From an uncultured Roseobacter sp. (lineage in GTDB: Bacteria > Pseudomonadota > Alphaproteobacteria > Rhodobacterales > Rhodobacteraceae), in contig CANMWT010000007.1 in the NCBI GenBank assembly GCA_947501635.1, forward strand, positions 124,001-188,000: a stretch of DNA of 64,000 nt, written 5' to 3'. Shown piece by piece: positions 35,930 through 45,294 of this stretch. Made by a program: the position numbers and the translations under genes. The notes beneath the pieces are model-generated. The model searched no databases, was not told where the DNA came from, and saw only the letters and a list, made by a program, of their open reading frames with translations. Every line of letters begins with the position of its first letter. Positions within the stretch are counted from its first letter, which is position 1.

Positions 35930-37336
35930 ATGAACATTACGTTTCGCCTCAACGGAGAAACTGTGTCCTTGAGCAACGTCGCTCCGACAACCACACTGCT
36001 TGACTGGCTGCGCGACACCCGCGGGCTCACCGGAACGAAAGAAGGATGTAACGAAGGAGACTGTGGCGCCTGTACGGTCATGGCAACGGACGAAACCGGA
36101 GCCCGCGCTCTCAATGCCTGCATCCTGTTTCTCCCCCAGATTAACGGCATGGCAATACGTACAGTCGAAGGTATCGCGGCACCCGACGGTACGCTGCATC
36201 CGATGCAACAAGCCATGATTGACCAACATGGCAGCCAGTGCGGCTTCTGCACACCCGGCTTTGTCGTCTCCATGGCAACAGCACACCTTAACGGCGCGAC
36301 TAATTACGACACCGAACTGGCCGGCAACCTGTGTCGTTGCACAGGCTATGCACCAATCATCCGCGCCGCAGAACAGGCGCAACATGAGGCTGTGCCAGAT
36401 CACATGCACGACACTCCTGTTCCAAATGGTCCAAATACCGCCGGGGGAAAAGCCGCAGGCTTTGGGGGCGGGCAGCCCCCGCTGTGGGTGCAACCCACCT
36501 CTTCGGACGAACTTGCCGCATGGTACAGCGCGCACCCGACCGCAACCCTGATAGGTGGTGCAACAGACGTAGGCCTGTGCGTCAACAAGGACTTTCGCGA
36601 CCTCGGCCCGATTGCTTTCCTCAACCGCTGCGCCGACCTCGCCACTGTGACCGTGTCAGAGAGCGAAATCCGCATTGGTGCGGCCGCGACCCTCACCGCC
36701 CTGCGCCAGTCTTTGGGCCCATTGCATCCATCGTTGGCGACCCTCATTGACAGATACGGGTCGGTGCAGGTTCGCAACGCCGCCACCATCGGCGGCAATA
36801 TCGCCAACGGATCTCCCATCGGTGACGGCCCGCCTGCCCTGATCGCTCTGGGTGCCACACTTCACCTGCGCATGGCAGACGAACGCCGCCAGATGGCCCT
36901 CGAAGACTTCTTCCTGGACTACGGCAAACAAGACCGCCGCCCCGGCGAGTTCGTCGAGTTCATCACCCTACCCCGGCAACCGGATCGCTTGAAATGCTAC
37001 AAACTGTCAAAACGCTTTGATCAGGATATCTCCGCCGTCTGCGGGTGCTTCTCGATCACTGTGGAAAACGACCTCGTCCGAGAGGCGAGAGTGGCCTTTG
37101 GCGGCATGGCTGGCGTGCCCAAGCGGGCGGAAAAGGCCGAAGCCGCGCTGCGCGGTGCCTCTTGGTCAGAAAAGACAGTCCGCGGCGCCATGTCCGCGCT
37201 GGACGCAGATTTCACCCCGTTAAGCGATATGCGTGCCTCGGCGAACTACCGCATGACGAGCGCGCGGAATATGCTCTGGCGTTATTGGCTGGAGGACAAC
37301 GGCACAACGGTTTCGGTACGCGAGGTATCGGTATGA
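35930..37336 (+). CDS. xdhA: Xanthine dehydrogenase small subunit (Fe-S/FAD)
   Basis: Carries electrons from the molybdenum subunit to NAD+. The 468-residue protein has an N-terminal [2Fe-2S] ferredoxin domain (C40, C45 and C48 in [14 protein letters not shown]), a second [2Fe-2S] domain ([12 protein letters not shown] and [12 protein letters not shown]), then an FAD domain with [16 protein letters not shown] and [20 protein letters not shown]. It is the first gene of the rightward purine cluster; its stop overlaps the xdhB start (ATGA). Confidence 0.96.
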
Positions 37337-39651
37337 CGGTTGCCAGAAACCTGCCGCATGATGCGGCCGATCTGCATGTCACCGGCGCGGCACGGTATGT
37401 AGACGATATCCCAACCCCTTCCGGCACGTTGCATCTGGCCTTTGGAACATCGACCGTAGCGCATGGATCGCTCAAATCCCTCGCACTGGACAAGGTCCGT
37501 GCCGCCCCGGGTGTCGTGGATGTGATAACCCCGGCCGACCTGCCTTTTGCCAATGATGTCTCGCCCTCGGCGCATGACGAGCCGCTCTTGGCACAGAACA
37601 AGGTGTTTTACGTGGGCCAGCCGTTGTTTCTGGTGGTGGCCCGCAGCCACTTACAAGCGCGCCGCGCCGCGCGATTGGCCGTGGCGGACATCGAGCCTCT
37701 GGACGCGATCCTCACGCTGGAGGATGCCTTGGCGGCGGACAGCCGTTTTGAAGAAGGGCCGCGCATCTATGCGCGGGGTGATGTCGAAGGCGCCATGGCG
37801 CAAGCAGCGCATGTGGTGACAGGGGCGTTTGATATCGGCGGACAAGAGCACTTTTATCTTGAAGGTCAAGCCGCGCTTGCCCAGCCGCAGGAAGGCGGCG
37901 ACATGATCATCATGAGCTCCACGCAACATCCCACGGAAATCCAGCACAAGGTCGCGGAAGCCTTGGGCGTTCCGATGCATGCGGTAAGGGTCGAAACCCG
38001 GCGTATGGGCGGTGGTTTCGGCGGAAAAGAAAGTCAGGGCAACGCGCTGGCTGTCGCCTGCGCGATCGCAGCCAGCCGTACGGGACGTGTGTGCAAGATG
38101 CGCTACGACCGAGACGACGACATGATGATTACCGGCAAAAGGCATGACTTCAGGATTCTTTACAAAGCGGCCTGTGATGCGGAAGGGCGCATTTTAGGCA
38201 TTGATTTCACCCACCTTGTCAGATGCGGTTGGGCGCAGGATCTGTCGTTGCCGGTTGCCGATCGCGCCATGTTGCATGCCGACAATGCCTATTTCCTGCC
38301 GCATGTCCGTATCACAAGTCATCGTCTGAAGACCCATACGCAAAGTGCGACCGCGTTCCGGGGTTTCGGCGGGCCGCAGGGGATGTTGGGGATCGAGCGG
38401 GTCATGGACCATATGGCCCAGGCGCTGGATCAAGACCCCCTCGCGCTGCGCCGAAAAAACTTTTATGCCTCCGGCGGGGATATTTCGGGACCAAAGAACC
38501 GGACGACCACGCCTTATGGCCAGACGGTAGAAGATTTCTGTCTGGGCGAAATGACAGAGCGATTGTGCGAGACCAGCGGATTTGTCGCGCGACAAGCGGA
38601 GGTCACGGCGTGGAACAGCACCCACACCGTTTTGAAGAAGGGTCTCGCGCTTACCCCTGTGAAATTCGGGATTTCATTCACGTTGACGCATCTTAATCAA
38701 GCCGGTGCGCTGGTGCATGTGTATCAGGATGGTTCTGTGCACCTCAACCACGGCGGCACGGAAATGGGACAGGGATTGTTTCAGAAAGTGGCTCAGGTAG
38801 CCGCAGCCCGGTTTGGAATTGATACAAGCCAGATCCGAATAACCGCGACGGATACGGCGAAGGTGCCCAATACATCGGCCACTGCAGCGTCCTCGGGAAG
38901 TGACCTGAACGGCATGGCGGTACAGGCAGCCTGTGACACAATCCGCGCGCGCATGGCCGCATTTATGGCACGTGAGCACCAGTGCGATGTTGCGCAGGTT
39001 GTGTTTCGCGATGGTGAGGTTTTGGTGGGAAGCACAGCCTACAGTTTCGCGCAGGTGGCCGAGAAAGCCTATCTTGGGAGGGTAAGCCTGTCTGCGACCG
39101 GATTTTACAAAACACCGAAAATTGCCTGGGACCGATTGAAAGGGCAAGGCCGGCCATTTTTCTATTTTGCCTATGGTGTTGCGGCCAGCGAAGTGGTTGT
39201 GGATACACTGACTGGTGAGAACCGTCTTCTGCGTGTCGATATCCTGCACGACACAGGCGCATCCTTGAACCCGAGCCTTGATATCGGGCAGATCGAAGGC
39301 GGGTTTGTTCAGGGAGCCGGGTGGTTGACCACCGAAGAGCTGGTTTGGGACCGCACAGGGCGTCTTCGGACCCATGCTCCCTCGACTTACAAGATCCCGG
39401 CCTGTTCGGACCGTCCTGACGTTTTCAACGTAGCGCTTTGGGATCAACAGAACGGTGAAGAAACGGTTTATCGGTCCAAAGCGGTGGGAGAGCCCCCGCT
39501 TATGCTGGGCATTTCGGCTTTCTCAGCGCTTTCACAAGCTGTGCAGGCCTGTGGTCCGCACTACGCGGATTTGCAGGCACCGGCGACTGCCGAGGCCATT
39601 TTGCGTGCCATCGGGCGTGCCAGAGGCGCGGGGGGGTCTGATGTCGTTTGA
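37333..39651 (+). CDS. xdhB: Xanthine dehydrogenase molybdenum-binding large subunit
   Basis: Oxidises hypoxanthine to xanthine and urate at a molybdopterin centre. The 772-residue protein has the molybdopterin-contacting [47 protein letters not shown] and the catalytic glutamate in VGEPPLMLG. Residues 377-389 ([13 protein letters not shown]) are encoded by a 38-bp element nearly identical to one upstream of the permease gene at 42156, so this loop looks like an in-frame insertion; relatives usually pass from NFY to TPYGQ with a shorter link. Start ATG 37333 overlaps xdhA; the frame extends upstream but is not used. The end overlaps xdhC by 11 bp. Confidence 0.95.
38461..38498 (+). repeat. 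38-bp repeat, copy A, inside xdhB
   Basis: This segment matches 42103-42140 at 36 of 38 positions; only the two bases at 38486-38487 differ (CG against TT). The core is GCCTCCGGCGGGGATATTT followed by GGACCAAAGAA. It is read in frame by xdhB as residues 377-389. Both copies have the same orientation. Similar strings seem familiar to me from other Rhodobacterales genomes, but this was not checked. Confidence 0.85.
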
Positions 39652-40573
39652 TCGCACCAGTCTGATCGCGGCTTGCGCACGCCATGGGCGCGTCTGCCGG
39701 GTGGTTGTGGCGCGCGTGCGCGGGTCGGCCCCACGCGAGGTGGGCGCATCGATGCTGGTGTGGAAAGACGGATTTTCCGGTACCATTGGCGGCGGACGGC
39801 TTGAACACACTGCAATGCGGGCGGCGCGCGCCTTACTCGACGCGGGCGGGCAAAGGGTGACGCGGCATGCTTTGGGACCTGATCTGGGTCAGTGCTGTGG
39901 CGGTTCTGTGGACCTGTTCACGACTGTGTATGATCTGGCCACCGCGCGCGCGTTGCCTGACGATGTTGTCCTGTCCGGCGCGGGTGATATGCCGTTGTCG
40001 GTGGCCCGCATCCGCGCAGGATGCACAGCCGCGGGCAACGCGCCGCAACCACAGCTTGTGGACGGGTGGATGGTTGAACCTGTCTCGAGCCCTGCGCGGC
40101 ACTTGTGGATATGGGGCGCGGGTCATGTAGGGCGTGCGCTTGTGGAGGTCTGCGCCCCGTTGCCTGACATGGCGCTGACCTGGGTGGATACGGATAGCGC
40201 GCGGTTCCCTCTGGATGTGCCTTCACAGGTCAACACGATCGCCGCCGGGCAGCCTGAAAGGCTGGTGGTGTACGCGCCGGCGGCAGCGGAACATCTGATC
40301 GTGACCTATTGCCATGATCTGGATCTGGAACTGTGTCACCGTCTTTTGGCGCATGGTTTCGGGTCTGCTGGGCTGATCGGCTCCGCGACCAAATGGGCGC
40401 GTTTTCGGTCGCGGCTCGGTGACCTGGGGCATTCCCCTGAGGCGATTTCGCGTATCACCTGCCCCATCGGACGGCCTGGGCTTGGCAAGCACCCGCACCA
40501 GATCGCCGTCGGCGTGGCCGCTGAGATGCTTGAAGCCGGCAGCTGCCTTGCGGAATTGGAGGGAACAGGATGA
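39641..40573 (+). CDS. xdhC: Xanthine dehydrogenase accessory protein XdhC
   Basis: Inserts the sulfurated molybdenum cofactor into XdhB and protects it. The 310-residue protein has the XdhC/CoxI N-terminal part (VRGSAPREVGASMLVWKDGFSGTIGGG with a following DLGQCCGGSVDL) and a C-terminal Rossmann-like part (LWIWGAGHVGRALVEV, GLIGSATKWARFRSRL). Its start overlaps the xdhB end by 11 bp and its stop overlaps the ABC ATPase start by 4 bp (ATGA), tying cofactor loading and transport to one message. Confidence 0.94.
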   Translation: MSFDRTSLIAACARHGRVCRVVVARVRGSAPREVGASMLVWKDGFSGTIGGGRLEHTAMRAARALLDAGGQRVTRHALGPDLGQCCGGSVDLFTTVYDLATARALPDDVVLSGAGDMPLSVARIRAGCTAAGNAPQPQLVDGWMVEPVSSPARHLWIWGAGHVGRALVEVCAPLPDMALTWVDTDSARFPLDVPSQVNTIAAGQPERLVVYAPAAAEHLIVTYCHDLDLELCHRLLAHGFGSAGLIGSATKWARFRSRLGDLGHSPEAISRITCPIGRPGLGKHPHQIAVGVAAEMLEAGSCLAELEGTG

Positions 40574-42084
40574 CAGAATTGCTCTCTTTAAAGGGGCTGA
40601 CGAAGGCCTATCCGGGTGTTGTCGCGAACGATGATGTGACCCTGTCGATCGGCAAAGGTGAAGTGCACGCCTTGCTGGGAGAAAACGGTGCGGGGAAGTC
40701 CACGCTCGTCAAGATGATCTACGGTTTGGTGAAACCTGACAGCGGCGAGATGACGTTCGACGGTGAGGTTTTTTTGCCACCTGAACCGCGTGCCGCGCGT
40801 GCTGCCGGTGTGGGTATGGTGTTTCAGCATTTTTCGCTTTTTGATGCGCTAAGTGTGGCGGAAAACATCGCGTTAGGCATGGAAGATGCCCCGAAGATGA
40901 ACACCTTGTCAGAGCGGATTTCAGAGGTGTCCGACACTTACGGCCTGCCCTTGTCGCCGGATCGCATTGTGGGGGATCTATCGGCAGGTGAGCGGCAACG
41001 GGTGGAGATCATTCGGTGCCTTCTGCAGGCACCACGGCTTTTGATCATGGACGAACCCACGTCGGTGCTGACGCCGCAAGAGGTTGATATCCTGTTCGAA
41101 ACACTCCGCAAGCTGCGCGGGGAGGGCACATCTATTCTGTATATCTCGCACAAGCTGGAGGAGATCAGGGCTTTGTGTGACGCCGCGACGATCCTGCGGC
41201 TTGGCAAGGTCGTGGGGACCTGCATTCCGCGTGACACAACGGCACGGGATATGGCGGAAATGATGGTGGGCAAGGTGTTGACCACGCCCAAGCGGTCCGG
41301 TGTCAGCCTGGGAGAGGTTGTGCTGGAGCTTGACGGGCTGTCGCTGCCATCGCCATCTGCTTTTGGCATGCCATTGCGCGATGTTTCCTTTGCGCTGCAA
41401 AAGGGAGAGATACTGGGTATCGGAGGTGTTGCGGGGAATGGGCAGGACGAACTGCTGGCGGCCCTGTCGGGAGAAATGCGCGCGCCGGCGGGCATGCTGC
41501 GGTTTAAAGGCCAGAGCATTGGTGGCGACGGGCCGGTCAGGCGGCGGCAGATGGGGGTACTGGCCGCTCCTGAGGAACGCCTCGGCCATGCAGCCGCCCC
41601 GGATATGTCCCTGACCGAGAATGCAATGCTGACCGGTGCGGTGCGGGAGGGGCTGGAGCAAAACGGGTTTTTGAACTGGCCTGCAGCGCGTGGCTTTGCG
41701 CAGACCATCATCGAAGCCTTCGATGTGCGCACCCCCGGGCCTGCCAATGCCGCAAGGTCTTTGTCGGGCGGCAATCTGCAGAAATTCGTGATCGGGCGTG
41801 AGGTTCTGCAACGCCCCGAGGTGCTGGTTGTGAACCAGCCTACCTGGGGAGTGGATGCTTCAGCGGCGGCCGCGATCCGGCAGGCGTTGCTGGATTTGGC
41901 AGAAGCGGGAGCTGCGGTTGTTGTGATAAGTCAGGACCTGGATGAACTGATGGAGATATCTGACCGTTTTGCGGCCCTGAACGAGGGACGCCTGTCAGCG
42001 CCGAGGCCAACTGAGGGGCTGACGGTAGAGCAGATCGGCTTGATGATGGGCGGCGCACATGGGATGGAAGTCGCCCATGTATAA
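40570..42084 (+). CDS. Nucleoside/purine-type ABC transporter ATPase (two domains)
   Basis: A 504-residue double ABC ATPase. The first domain is complete (Walker A GENGAGKST, signature LSAGERQRVE, Walker B LLIMDEPTSV). The second has a degenerate Walker A (GVAGNGQDELL), signature LSGGNLQKFVIGRE and Walker B with VNQPTWGVD, as in the YufO/NupA and RbsA-like group, so only the first site is likely to hydrolyse ATP. Neighbouring xdhABC and a BMP-type binding protein indicate purine or nucleoside uptake; the precise substrate is inferred. Confidence 0.92.
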   Translation: MTELLSLKGLTKAYPGVVANDDVTLSIGKGEVHALLGENGAGKSTLVKMIYGLVKPDSGEMTFDGEVFLPPEPRAARAAGVGMVFQHFSLFDALSVAENIALGMEDAPKMNTLSERISEVSDTYGLPLSPDRIVGDLSAGERQRVEIIRCLLQAPRLLIMDEPTSVLTPQEVDILFETLRKLRGEGTSILYISHKLEEIRALCDAATILRLGKVVGTCIPRDTTARDMAEMMVGKVLTTPKRSGVSLGEVVLELDGLSLPSPSAFGMPLRDVSFALQKGEILGIGGVAGNGQDELLAALSGEMRAPAGMLRFKGQSIGGDGPVRRRQMGVLAAPEERLGHAAAPDMSLTENAMLTGAVREGLEQNGFLNWPAARGFAQTIIEAFDVRTPGPANAARSLSGGNLQKFVIGREVLQRPEVLVVNQPTWGVDASAAAAIRQALLDLAEAGAAVVVISQDLDELMEISDRFAALNEGRLSAPRPTEGLTVEQIGLMMGGAHGMEVAHV

Positions 42085-42102
42085 ACATTTGAAATCCAGA
42101 AT

Positions 42103-42140
42103 TTTTATGCCTCCGGCGGGGATATTTTTGGACCAAAGAA
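42103..42140 (+). repeat. 38-bp repeat, copy B, before the first permease gene
   Basis: The second copy of the element in xdhB (36 of 38 identical), placed in the 71-bp gap between the ABC ATPase and permease genes. It ends 15 bp before the permease ATG, just upstream of the ribosome-binding site CCGGAGAGG. It contains GCCTCCGGC, which can pair GCC with GGC around TCC, but no strong hairpin. Confidence 0.85.
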
Positions 42141-42155
42141 ATCCGGAGAGGCATT

Positions 42156-43238
42156 ATGGTCAGGTTTGAAAAGAGGCCCCAGCCAAGCCGTTTGTTTGCC
42201 TATGCGACACCGCTTTTGGCGGTGCTGGCAACTTTCTTTTTCGGCGGCTTGCTTTTTGCGGCCCTCGGTAAGGATCCGGTCGTGTCGATCGTGACGATTT
42301 TCTGGGAGCCGCTGTTTGGTGAGTTTTCTTTCTTTTACCGGCCGCAACTGCTTATCAAGGGGGCACCTTTGGTGCTGATCGCAATCGGGCTGAGCCTGGG
42401 TTTCAAGGCAGGTATCTGGAATATTGGTGCCGAAGGTCAGTACATCATGGGGGCACTGGTGGGTGCGGGTGTCGGGCTGGCATTTTACCCGACAGAAAGC
42501 GTTCTGATATTTCCGCTGATGGTGCTGGCTGGTGCTTTGGGCGGCATGTTGTGGGCGATGATCCCTGCGCTTTTGAAAGTGAGGTTTGGCACCAATGAAA
42601 TTCTGGTGTCATTGATGCTGGTCTATGTCGCCGAGCAGTTTCTTGCTTCCATGTCATTGGGGTTGTTGAAAAACCCGGAGGGCTTCGGCTTTCCGGGGAG
42701 CCGGAACCTGCAACAGTATCCCTCAGCTCATAATGCCGAAATCATCGCCGGTTCCGGAATGCATTGTGGCGTTGTTGCCGCACTGATTGCAGTGATCTTC
42801 GCCTATGTGCTTTTTGCGCGCCACAAGCTGGGATTTGCGATCAGGGTGACGGGTGAGGCACCGCGCGCGGCACGGTTTTCGGGGGTGAACCCGAGCCGGC
42901 TTGTGGTGTTCTGTCTTGGCGCGTCTGGCATGCTGGCGGGGTTGGCAGGCCTGTTCGAAGTTTCTGGACCAGCGGGACAGGTCACCATCGATTTCAACGT
43001 GGGATATGGCTTTACCGCGATTATCGTGGCGTTTCTGGGGCGGCTCAATCCGATTGGAATCGTGCTTGCGGGATTGCTCATGGCGCTGACCTATATCGGC
43101 GGCGATATTGCACAGAGCCAGCTGCAGCTACCGGCAGCAGCCATTCAGGTCTTTCAGGGGATGCTTTTGTTTTTCCTGCTGGCCTTTGATCTTTTCACAA
43201 ATTACCGGCTTCGGTTTGGCCGGTCCGAGGTGGCATGA
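42156..43238 (+). CDS. Nucleoside/purine-type ABC transporter permease 1
   Basis: A 360-residue inner-membrane permease of the BPD_transp_2 family (YufP/NupP-like) with about nine membrane segments. The block LSLGFKAGIWNIGAEGQYIMGAL and later VTGEAPRAARFSGVN followed by SGMLAGLAGLFEVSG are typical. It starts at ATG 42156 after GGAGAGG, downstream of repeat copy B, and its stop overlaps the start of permease 2 (ATGA). Confidence 0.92.
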   Translation: MVRFEKRPQPSRLFAYATPLLAVLATFFFGGLLFAALGKDPVVSIVTIFWEPLFGEFSFFYRPQLLIKGAPLVLIAIGLSLGFKAGIWNIGAEGQYIMGALVGAGVGLAFYPTESVLIFPLMVLAGALGGMLWAMIPALLKVRFGTNEILVSLMLVYVAEQFLASMSLGLLKNPEGFGFPGSRNLQQYPSAHNAEIIAGSGMHCGVVAALIAVIFAYVLFARHKLGFAIRVTGEAPRAARFSGVNPSRLVVFCLGASGMLAGLAGLFEVSGPAGQVTIDFNVGYGFTAIIVAFLGRLNPIGIVLAGLLMALTYIGGDIAQSQLQLPAAAIQVFQGMLLFFLLAFDLFTNYRLRFGRSEVA

Positions 43239-44158
43239 TGGATTTATCAGCAATCAATCCGATACTTCTGGTCGCTGCATTGATGAGCGCGGCGACGCCT
43301 ATCCTGCTGGCCGCGACCGGCGAGTTGGTGGTGGAGCGCGCGGGCGTTCTGAACCTGGGCGTTGAAGGCATGATGATCATCGGCGCAATTTGCGGGTTTG
43401 CCATTGCGGTTGAGACCGGATCGCCCACAATCGGCTTTGTCGCAGCAGCGGTGGGCGGGGCGCTGCTGAGTTTGCTTTTTGCTTTCCTCACCCAGATCAC
43501 GCTGGCCAACCAGGTTGCATCCGGACTGGCGCTGACGCTCTTTGGTCTTGGCCTCTCCGCCCTTTTGGGTCAGGGGTATGTCGGCATAAAGCCACCGCGT
43601 ATGCCGGACATCAATTTTGGTCCGCTGGCGGACATTCCCGTGCTTGGGCCCATCCTGTTTTCACATGATCCGATCCTCTATGTCGGGCTGCTGATCGTGG
43701 CGGTCGTCTGGGCCGTATTGAAGTTTACTCGTGTGGGGCTGGTACTGCGTGCAGTCGGCGAAAATCACGATGCCGCGCATGCGTTGGGCTACAAGGTTGT
43801 GCGGATCAGAACACTTGCCATCATGTTCGGGGGCGCCTGTGCCGGCATGGGTGGTGCCTACATTAGTCTGATCCGCGTCCCGCAGTGGACCGAAGGTATG
43901 ACGGCGGGTGTTGGATGGATCGCACTCGCGTTGGTTGTCTTTGCCTCATGGAAGCCCTGGCGCGTCTTGCTTGGTGCCTATCTTTTTGGCGGAATAACCC
44001 AATTGCAGCTTAATTTGCAGGGCGCCGGCGTTGCCATTCCCGTCGAATATCTGGCAATGTCGCCCTACGTTATCACAATCGTTGTGCTCGTTATCCTGTC
44101 TGCGGATAAGAGCGCCGCTCCCGGCTCCTTGGGCCGGACATTCCACGCCTCAAGCTAG
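43235..44158 (+). CDS. Nucleoside/purine-type ABC transporter permease 2
   Basis: A 307-residue permease of the same family (YufQ/NupQ-like). It has ATPILLAATGELVVERAGVLNLGVEGMM near the N-terminus, then VLRAVGENHDAAHALGYKVV and GACAGMGGAYISL. It pairs with permease 1 to form the membrane channel. Its ATG overlaps the stop codon of permease 1, and the binding-protein gene follows after 53 bp. Confidence 0.92.
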   Translation: MMDLSAINPILLVAALMSAATPILLAATGELVVERAGVLNLGVEGMMIIGAICGFAIAVETGSPTIGFVAAAVGGALLSLLFAFLTQITLANQVASGLALTLFGLGLSALLGQGYVGIKPPRMPDINFGPLADIPVLGPILFSHDPILYVGLLIVAVVWAVLKFTRVGLVLRAVGENHDAAHALGYKVVRIRTLAIMFGGACAGMGGAYISLIRVPQWTEGMTAGVGWIALALVVFASWKPWRVLLGAYLFGGITQLQLNLQGAGVAIPVEYLAMSPYVITIVVLVILSADKSAAPGSLGRTFHASS

Positions 44159-44211
44159 AGGCATTTCAGCGCCCCGGTACAGGGGCGGTTCAACATGGGG
44201 AAGACCTGAAC

Positions 44212-45294
44212 ATGAAACTCACCACCCTTTTTGCCAGCGCGGCACTCGCGCTTGGACTTGCGTCCGGCGCATGGGCCGACGGGCATGAAAAGACCAAGGT
44301 CGGCTTTGTCTACGTGGGGCCTGTCGGCGATGGCGGCTGGACCTTTACGCACGATCAGGGCCGCCTTGCAGTCGAGGAAGAATTCGGCGATGCGGTTGAA
44401 ACCGTTTTTGTTGAGAACGTAGCCGAAGGCCCGGATGCCGAACGTGTAATGACACAGATGGCGCTCGACGGGGCAGACCTGATTTTCACCACGTCCTTCG
44501 GATATATGGACGCCACCAACAATGTCGCGGCCAAGTTCCCTGACATCAAGTTCGAACATGCGACGGGCTACAAGCGCCTGCACCCCAATGTGTCGACCTA
44601 TTCTGCGCGTTTCTACGAAGGTCGCGCCGTGCAGGGTCATATCGCAGGCAGCATCACCGAAAGTAACATCATCGGCTACATCGCCTCCTTCCCGATCCCC
44701 GAGGTTATCCGGGGCATCAACTCGGCCTATATCCACGCCAAGAAGGCAAACCCGGATGTCGAGTTCAAGATCATCTGGGTCTACACATGGTTCGATCCAG
44801 CCAAGGAAGCAGACGCAGCAACCGCACTGATCGAACAGGGTGCCGATGTTATTCTGCAGCACACGGACTCGACCGCACCGCATGCGGCAGCACAGGAAGC
44901 AGGCAATGTCGCAGCCTTTGGTCAGGCGTCTGACATGAGCGCCTACGCCCCCTACCCGCGCGTCAGTGCGATCCTTGACCTTTGGGGCCCCTACTACGTA
45001 GAGCGCACCCGCGCCGTGATCGATGGTACGTGGGAAAGCGTGGACACCTGGAACGGCATCGGCGACGGTATGGTCGGCATTGGCGAGATCACAGATGCTG
45101 TGCCCGCCGAGGTCAAAGCCGAAGCGCTGGCGCTGAAAGCGTCGCTGGCGGATGGGTCCTATCACGCCTTTACCGGCCCGCTGAACAAGCAGGACGGCTC
45201 CGCTTGGCTGGGCGAAGGGGAAAGCGCAGATGATGGCACGCTTGCAGGCATGAACTTCTACGTTGAAGGCATCACCGGCGACATCCCGCAGTAA
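44212..45294 (+). CDS. BMP-family ABC transporter substrate-binding protein
   Basis: A 360-residue periplasmic binding protein of the BMP/PnrA family, characterised members of which bind purine nucleosides or related compounds. After a signal peptide (MKLTTLFASAALALGLASGA, cleaved near WA-DG) come KVGFVYVGPVGDGGWTFTHDQGR, DLIFTTSFGYMDATNNVAAKFP and GRAVQGHIAGSITESNIIGYIASFP. It is the last gene of the purine cluster and is followed by a strong terminator. Confidence 0.94.
   Translation: MKLTTLFASAALALGLASGAWADGHEKTKVGFVYVGPVGDGGWTFTHDQGRLAVEEEFGDAVETVFVENVAEGPDAERVMTQMALDGADLIFTTSFGYMDATNNVAAKFPDIKFEHATGYKRLHPNVSTYSARFYEGRAVQGHIAGSITESNIIGYIASFPIPEVIRGINSAYIHAKKANPDVEFKIIWVYTWFDPAKEADAATALIEQGADVILQHTDSTAPHAAAQEAGNVAAFGQASDMSAYAPYPRVSAILDLWGPYYVERTRAVIDGTWESVDTWNGIGDGMVGIGEITDAVPAEVKAEALALKASLADGSYHAFTGPLNKQDGSAWLGEGESADDGTLAGMNFYVEGITGDIPQ

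Follow-up and report, generated by a model that had tools for sequence, protein, structure and literature searches.

A dispersed two-part repeat with lineage-specific dialects in Rhodobacteraceae, read in frame within xdhB and bchB

The stretch of DNA analysed here (positions 124,001 to 188,000 of contig CANMWT010000007.1 from an uncultured Roseobacter sp.), referred to as the window at its full length of 64 kb, carries a xanthine dehydrogenase cluster in which a 38-base element occurs twice. The element is a dispersed, dialect-bearing bipartite word that is partly kept in place and is obeyed in two coding sequences. The cluster lies on the + strand and comprises xdhA (35930..37336; TIGR02963 over cut-off), xdhB, which encodes the molybdopterin subunit (37333..39651; TIGR02965 over cut-off, best solved relative 1JRO chain B), xdhC (39641..40573; TIGR02964 over cut-off), an ATP-binding cassette (ABC) transporter ATPase gene (40570..42084; best model NF047930, below its cut-off) and an ABC permease gene (42156..43238; best model NF047929, below its cut-off). 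The ABC transporter set beside xdh, at 40570-45294, is similar to models NF047927-NF047930 of a putative B6 transporter, all below cut-off.

Copy 1 (38461..38498) and copy 2 (42103..42140) are both on the + strand and 3.6 kb apart, and a direct read bears out the preliminary description in finding them identical at 36 of 38 bases. Each contains a GC-rich 5' module (38467..38478, GCCTCCGGCGGG, in copy 1; 42109..42120 in copy 2) of the class termed type A below, followed by a box made up of a first half, GATATTT (38479..38485 and 42121..42127), a variable spacer, CGG (38486..38488) or TTG (42128..42130), and a second half, GACCAAAGAA (38489..38498 and 42131..42140). The only mismatches, CG (38486-38487) as opposed to TT (42128-42129), fall within this 3-base spacer. 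Copy 1 is translated as part of XdhB, numbered from 37333, in which NFY forms residues 376-378 and the element contributes residues 379-389; copy 2 is situated between the stop of the ATPase gene (42084) and the start of the permease gene (42156), ahead of CCGGAGAGG. A 19-base core with up to three mismatches is found at just these two places in the window, compared with a mean of 0.06 cores in shuffled versions, none of 100 of which contained two.

Both the core and the box recur throughout the 4,214,070-base genome. There are 32 exact matches to the core, copy 1 among them, and 44 with up to two mismatches, with none for a reversed control. The pattern GRTATTT-NNN-GACCAAAGAA is matched exactly 58 times, again including copy 1 and always as GATATTT, and with one, two and three mismatches 5, 2 and 16 times respectively, against 4 matches in total for its reversed control; this scarcity of near-miss boxes implies that the family holds hardly any decaying members. 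The preliminary description had offered, as its alternative, a local duplication from xdhB, by which part of that gene would have been copied to the position upstream of the permease gene. Such an origin would suit two copies so close together in one cluster, but it is refuted by the 30 further exact cores in the genome, and by the copies found across the family.

The anatomy of the element was studied in 61 copies read from approximately 195 kb of DNA fetched from the same genome. The spacer is three bases long in 59 of these, two in one and four in one, and its positions carry 0.01, 0.12 and 0.62 bits of information (n = 59), the third being mostly a purine, between flanking halves that are near-invariant; outside the element there is little conservation in this alignment. 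The general architecture is a GC-rich 5' module, present in most copies, and then the bipartite box [GA][AG]TATTT-NNN followed by a 10-base, A-rich second half that differs between genomes and is here called its dialect. In 35 of 59 elements the module is type A (GCCTCCGGCGGG or its variant GCCTTCGGCGAG), and in the other 24 it is type B or another form, mostly consisting of a run of G, then one of C, in many cases a second inverted repeat, a second C run and then GGGATATTT. At least one locus, L101, has a box lacking a clear 5' module.

As the preliminary description anticipated for a dispersed repeat family, 59 of the 61 copies are intergenic; the remaining two are in frame inside genes, namely xdhB and bchB. 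Placement figures are approximate, as gene calls came from a home-made codon-usage finder that missed some genes (xdhA, for example). With respect to their neighbours, 25 intergenic copies are codirectional and sense, 12 codirectional and antisense, 17 at converging and five at diverging junctions, where background junctions of the same loci number 41 ++, 31 --, 13 +- and 15 -+. A neighbouring gene ends towards the element in 54 of the 59, and in 51 its stop codon is within 60 bases. A looser pattern gave 63 matches in other genomes, of which 15 are sense, 18 antisense, 21 converging and three diverging; six overlap a predicted gene, two of these being the bchB site. In-gene calls at L139, L188, L293 and L302 reflect wrong starts or overlaps at gene ends and were excluded from the counts. 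At L188 and L302, the box apparently provides the start codon in one genome, and in another the C-terminus of a gene is apparently read off the antisense strand of the element. No regulon is likely, because the neighbouring genes are unrelated: in a Pfam scan of 20 of the 65 stop-adjacent genes, 19 belong to unrelated families (dnaN, acyl-CoA dehydrogenase, PdxA, GrpE, a TRAP transporter and others) and one to none.

The proximity to stop codons would be expected of an RNA signal, in which an intercistronic or 3'-end hairpin blocks exonucleases, guides processing or ends transcription, and the box is a tail for an RNA-binding protein. The tendency of runs in type B to equal lengths points the same way (G1 = C1 in 74%, G1 = C2 in 71% and C1 = C2 in 83%, against about 41% when shuffled; 101 non-independent elements drawn from all fetched loci), as does a lean towards the sense orientation, in which both coding copies also lie. 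However, antisense copies are common (12 of 37 codirectional copies in the source genome and 18 of 33 in other genomes), the element is present inside translated xdhB and bchB, and none of seven folded elements was clearly more stable than its own shuffles (z of +1.4 and +1.9 for type A, -1.8 to +0.4 for type B), so that a stable RNA hairpin was rejected as a common feature. Comparison of 21 loci with the covariance models of Rfam 15 likewise identified no known RNA family over threshold, the single match at E up to 1 having E 0.68 and 22.9 bits against a threshold of 40. An RNA signal is improbable. An intrinsic terminator would be a stable hairpin followed by a U run, in sense to the gene; mixed orientation and the lack of a clearly stable fold in the seven elements argue against one, and only TTT is fixed after the module.

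The preliminary description's suggestion of similar strings in other Rhodobacterales proved correct. When one genome per genus of the GTDB Rhodobacteraceae was searched, the 19-mer with up to one mismatch was present in 90 of 149, with 0 to 81 copies in each and none for the reversed control. Elsewhere in the class, the box pattern in the style of the source genome was matched 69 times in 285 genomes and its reversed control 39 times, with at most three per genome for either; no other family stands out in this search, although the pattern misses other dialects and recovered elements in just two of four Rhodobacteraceae genomes. When copy 2 was used to query annotated plasmids, 26 records matched at E up to 10; in those of genera that we take to be Rhodobacteraceae, wherever the record carries annotation, the best place has no annotated gene beneath it, the gene tables being incomplete. 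A phage origin was rejected, as a phage collection searched up to E 10 gave weak matches only, the best having E 0.2. The matches listed in text searches included no published description of the element.

Between genomes it is the spelling of the second half that varies. The dialect is AACCAGAGAA in G153, GCCAGAAGAA in G163, G156 and G162 alike, AACAGAAGAA in G005, ACCAGAAGAA in G006 and GCAAGATGAA in G010; Cognatishimia has CAAAGGTGAA and CAAAGAAGAA, Tritonibacter AAAAGGTGAA, and Phaeobacter GTTAGAAGAA and AAAAGATGAA. These differences were compared at equivalent places in five congeners, from which 30 loci were fetched and 26 contained an element according to the pattern of the script. Fourteen of the 26, from four congeners, sit in the same orientation at nine places occupied by elements in the source genome, three of the 14 being the bchB site; L138 was not counted as a shared place, because there the element is situated where the shared gene starts, rather than at its stop as in L084. 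None of the 15 elements at shared places has the spelling of the source genome. Twelve have the commonest spelling of their own genome, and the other three (L119, L134 and, at L125, the type A copy) a second spelling that is found elsewhere in the same genome. The spacer equals that of the source genome in only one of the 15, and at one junction in three congeners (L126, L127 and L137) identical boxes enclose three different spacers. As copying would also carry along the spacer between the halves, these differences are read as selection acting on the halves themselves. One convergent junction, seen in L029 and L125, has an element of type A facing one of type B, and a congener also has both.

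The copy within xdhB was followed across 113 XdhB loci; a reading frame was obtained for 99 and the loop could be read in 91, leaving 89 distinct loops once L205 and L252 were recognised as the same records as L041 and L044. A box is present in 33 of the 89 loops, 13 of them with type A and 20 with type B modules, and always in one frame, even though 29 of the 35 box-bearing rows would be open in all three. On a tree of the 89 proteins built without the loop, the presence of the box requires 25 changes, at least 12 of them forced by well-supported branches, and swaps between types A and B among box-bearing rows account for at least five changes. Losses or gains of the site have been numerous. 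Both a single ancestral insertion, later lost or rewritten many times over, and repeated arrivals fit this pattern; the constant frame favours the former. The solved enzyme 1JRO is that of Rhodobacter capsulatus, whose xdhB (L261) carries a type B module in the loop, where the box has decayed. Other XdhB loops (e.g. L081, L082, L209, L219 and L243) contain a second recurring peptide, approximately D-x-x-S-R-G-A, and a third, approximately R-F/Y-G-x-x-x-S-P.

The spelling of the xdhB box follows that of its genome. Over 17 bases it is identical to a sampled element of the same genome in 13 of 28 cases, against 1.3% of pairings with other genomes, and none of 20,000 shuffles reached the observed sum; in this test one of 29 genomes was dropped as it had no sampled element, further box-bearing genomes lay outside the sample, and hand-picked rows for minor dialects were omitted. 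In seven Roseobacter xdhB copies, codons for the same residue are identical in 102 of 102 comparisons inside the element, compared with 54% in the rest of the gene, although the same sequences enter several comparisons and an equally high score is reached in 8 of 656 six-codon windows. The copy at L040 differs from the others in having F for S and E for G, and its module, GCCTTCGGCGAG, also occurs at six other places in the source genome.

The second coding copy is in frame within a 521-residue open reading frame identified as BchB (TIGR01278 over cut-off). An in-frame box is present in bchB of the source genome, G153, G162, G163 and Thalassococcus sp. S3, and absent from that of R. litoralis, R. 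ponti, Tateyamaria, two Sulfitobacter and Roseinatronobacter; the script did not locate the linker of Novosphingobium. The same element is thus read in frame within two unrelated proteins, and in both the coding copies mostly follow the dialect of the genome. The preliminary description had seen in the xdhB copy an insertion that was tolerated by its host protein. Its in-frame position in an XdhB loop stands, but the notion of a single recent stray insertion had to be revised in view of the box in 33 loops in one frame, the spelling in the dialect of the genome, the conserved codons and the copy in bchB; the coding copies appear to be under selection and not simply tolerated.

The main rival to selection is a selfish element, similar to repetitive extragenic palindromic (REP) sequences or miniature inverted-repeat transposable elements, that is moved by a putative enzyme, with new copies overwriting old ones at favoured stop-adjacent sites and at two permissive coding sites to give uniform genomes. 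The range of 0 to 81 copies of one spelling per genome is in keeping with such mobility, as are the REP-like preference for 3' ends, the frequent gains and losses in xdhB with the swapping of types there, and inverted pairs. In G063, the matches listed include five head-to-head inverted pairs of the 19-mer at 51-53 bp and one at 33 bp (for example C9:50887 with 50939, and C10:20233 with 20284), like the pairs termed bacterial interspersed mosaic elements (BIMEs) or REP doublets forming hairpins (REPINs). Against these features, the spacer, which copying would take with it, is close to random inside any one genome; several species have some of the places in common, and almost no copies are decayed; and all 33 distinct xdhB copies share a frame that most rows would not have enforced. 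Moreover, the consensus of the source genome lacks a GTAG-like tag. The Y1 transposase, PF01797, was not found in 15 of the 16 genomes searched, that of the window included, the sixteenth (G163) having only a 44-residue match, on which grounds mobilisation by REP-associated tyrosine transposases (RAYTs) or IS200 was rejected. A selfish element appears rather unlikely, though less so than an RNA signal.

The explanation that we favour, with a probability of roughly 0.5, is that the sites are held by selection for a putative co-evolving, sequence-specific factor that reads DNA. The box would be the binding site of this putative trans-acting factor; given that boxes occur in either orientation, the factor more likely reads DNA. 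As its specificity drifts, selection for recognition would keep the sites in step, and coding copies would be retained as sites wherever a loop or linker can afford them. Several observations weigh against this explanation. Boxes in xdhB are scattered almost as if shuffled (25 changes, against a shuffled mean of 27.0), which together with their frequent change implies that no single site is indispensable. No exact match to the sample of their own genome is found for 15 of the 28 xdhB boxes, and in a variant of the tracking test, with hand-picked rows and minor dialects included, eight of 28 matched another genome better, among them some from genomes with only one or two sampled elements and some that look decayed. 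Four congeners underlie the conservation of places, which mainly concerns type B, and two or three dialects occur in several genomes, which dilutes the idea of a single dialect in each. The lean of copies in the source genome towards sense, 27:12 with both coding copies (binomial p 0.024), suits an RNA role. Finally, no candidate for the factor was found, PF01797 being the one candidate family searched for.

Extended to its full scope, selection by a DNA-reading factor would amount to a genome-wide address system of the Rhodobacteraceae, in which two-part sites, dozens in number and each with a free spacer of three bases, are dragged along by a putative drifting reader, also inside coding sequence, where this overrides the protein's own evolution; we put this forward tentatively, as falling somewhat short of an even chance. 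If true, a large marine and soil family would possess a lineage-specific word, partly at fixed places, the drift of which could be traced site by site, providing a natural experiment on the joint change of a recognition system and its dispersed sites. The variable loop of xanthine dehydrogenase, including that of Rhodobacter capsulatus, and the linker of BchB would then be nucleotide-level elements, not protein adaptations.

The element may be compared with several known systems. REP sequences, BIMEs and REPINs offer parallels in their placement near 3' ends, inverted pairs and lineage-specific types, and REPs number hundreds in E. coli. REP-type repeats are described, in a passage of PMC8266576, as dispersed, mostly intergenic sequences of 20-50 nt. 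The element here resembles REP, BIME and REPIN sequences and their transposase TnpA-REP (RAYT) systems in being short, dispersed, in many copies and mainly intergenic, although its approximately 60 copies are below the hundreds in E. coli. It differs in that its consensus has no GTAG-type tag and reaches its highest conservation downstream of the GC module (both in the source genome), in the nearly random spacer between invariant halves, in places that are kept while spelling differs, and in the absence of a stable fold in type A. By its defining enzyme, which was not found in 15 of the 16 genomes searched, it is not a REP/RAYT system.

DNA uptake sequences are 10-12 bases long and present in very many copies. 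Those of the Neisseriaceae are, according to PMC3630211, short words with species-specific dialects, and the element shares with them the property of a genome-wide short word with a species dialect. It is unlike them in comprising 20 bases with a spacer as well as a GC module, and its low number of about 60 copies argues against a role in uptake. Rickettsia palindromic elements, as PMC10969869 presents them, are short repeats translated in frame within proteins that are unrelated to one another, a likeness in placement to the copies in xdhB and bchB. At approximately 150 bp and with nearly half in genes, the Rickettsia elements contrast with the two coding copies among 61 read here, which keep the spelling of the genome. 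The three tandem G/C runs of type B recall the intrastrand triplex motifs (TM-ECO) of PMC4666352, in whose main text the six names tried, Rhodobacter, Roseobacter and Paracoccus among them, are absent. However, type B runs of about 5 are shorter than the 6-15 searched for in that study, the second gap is often larger, and type A has no runs.

A variant core, GCCTCCGGCGGCGGTATTT, is found in the source genome at G000:C3:404804 and 404855 and at G000:C6:150063 and 260152, once as an inverted pair; it falls outside the set of boxes described above and is possibly a separate subfamily.

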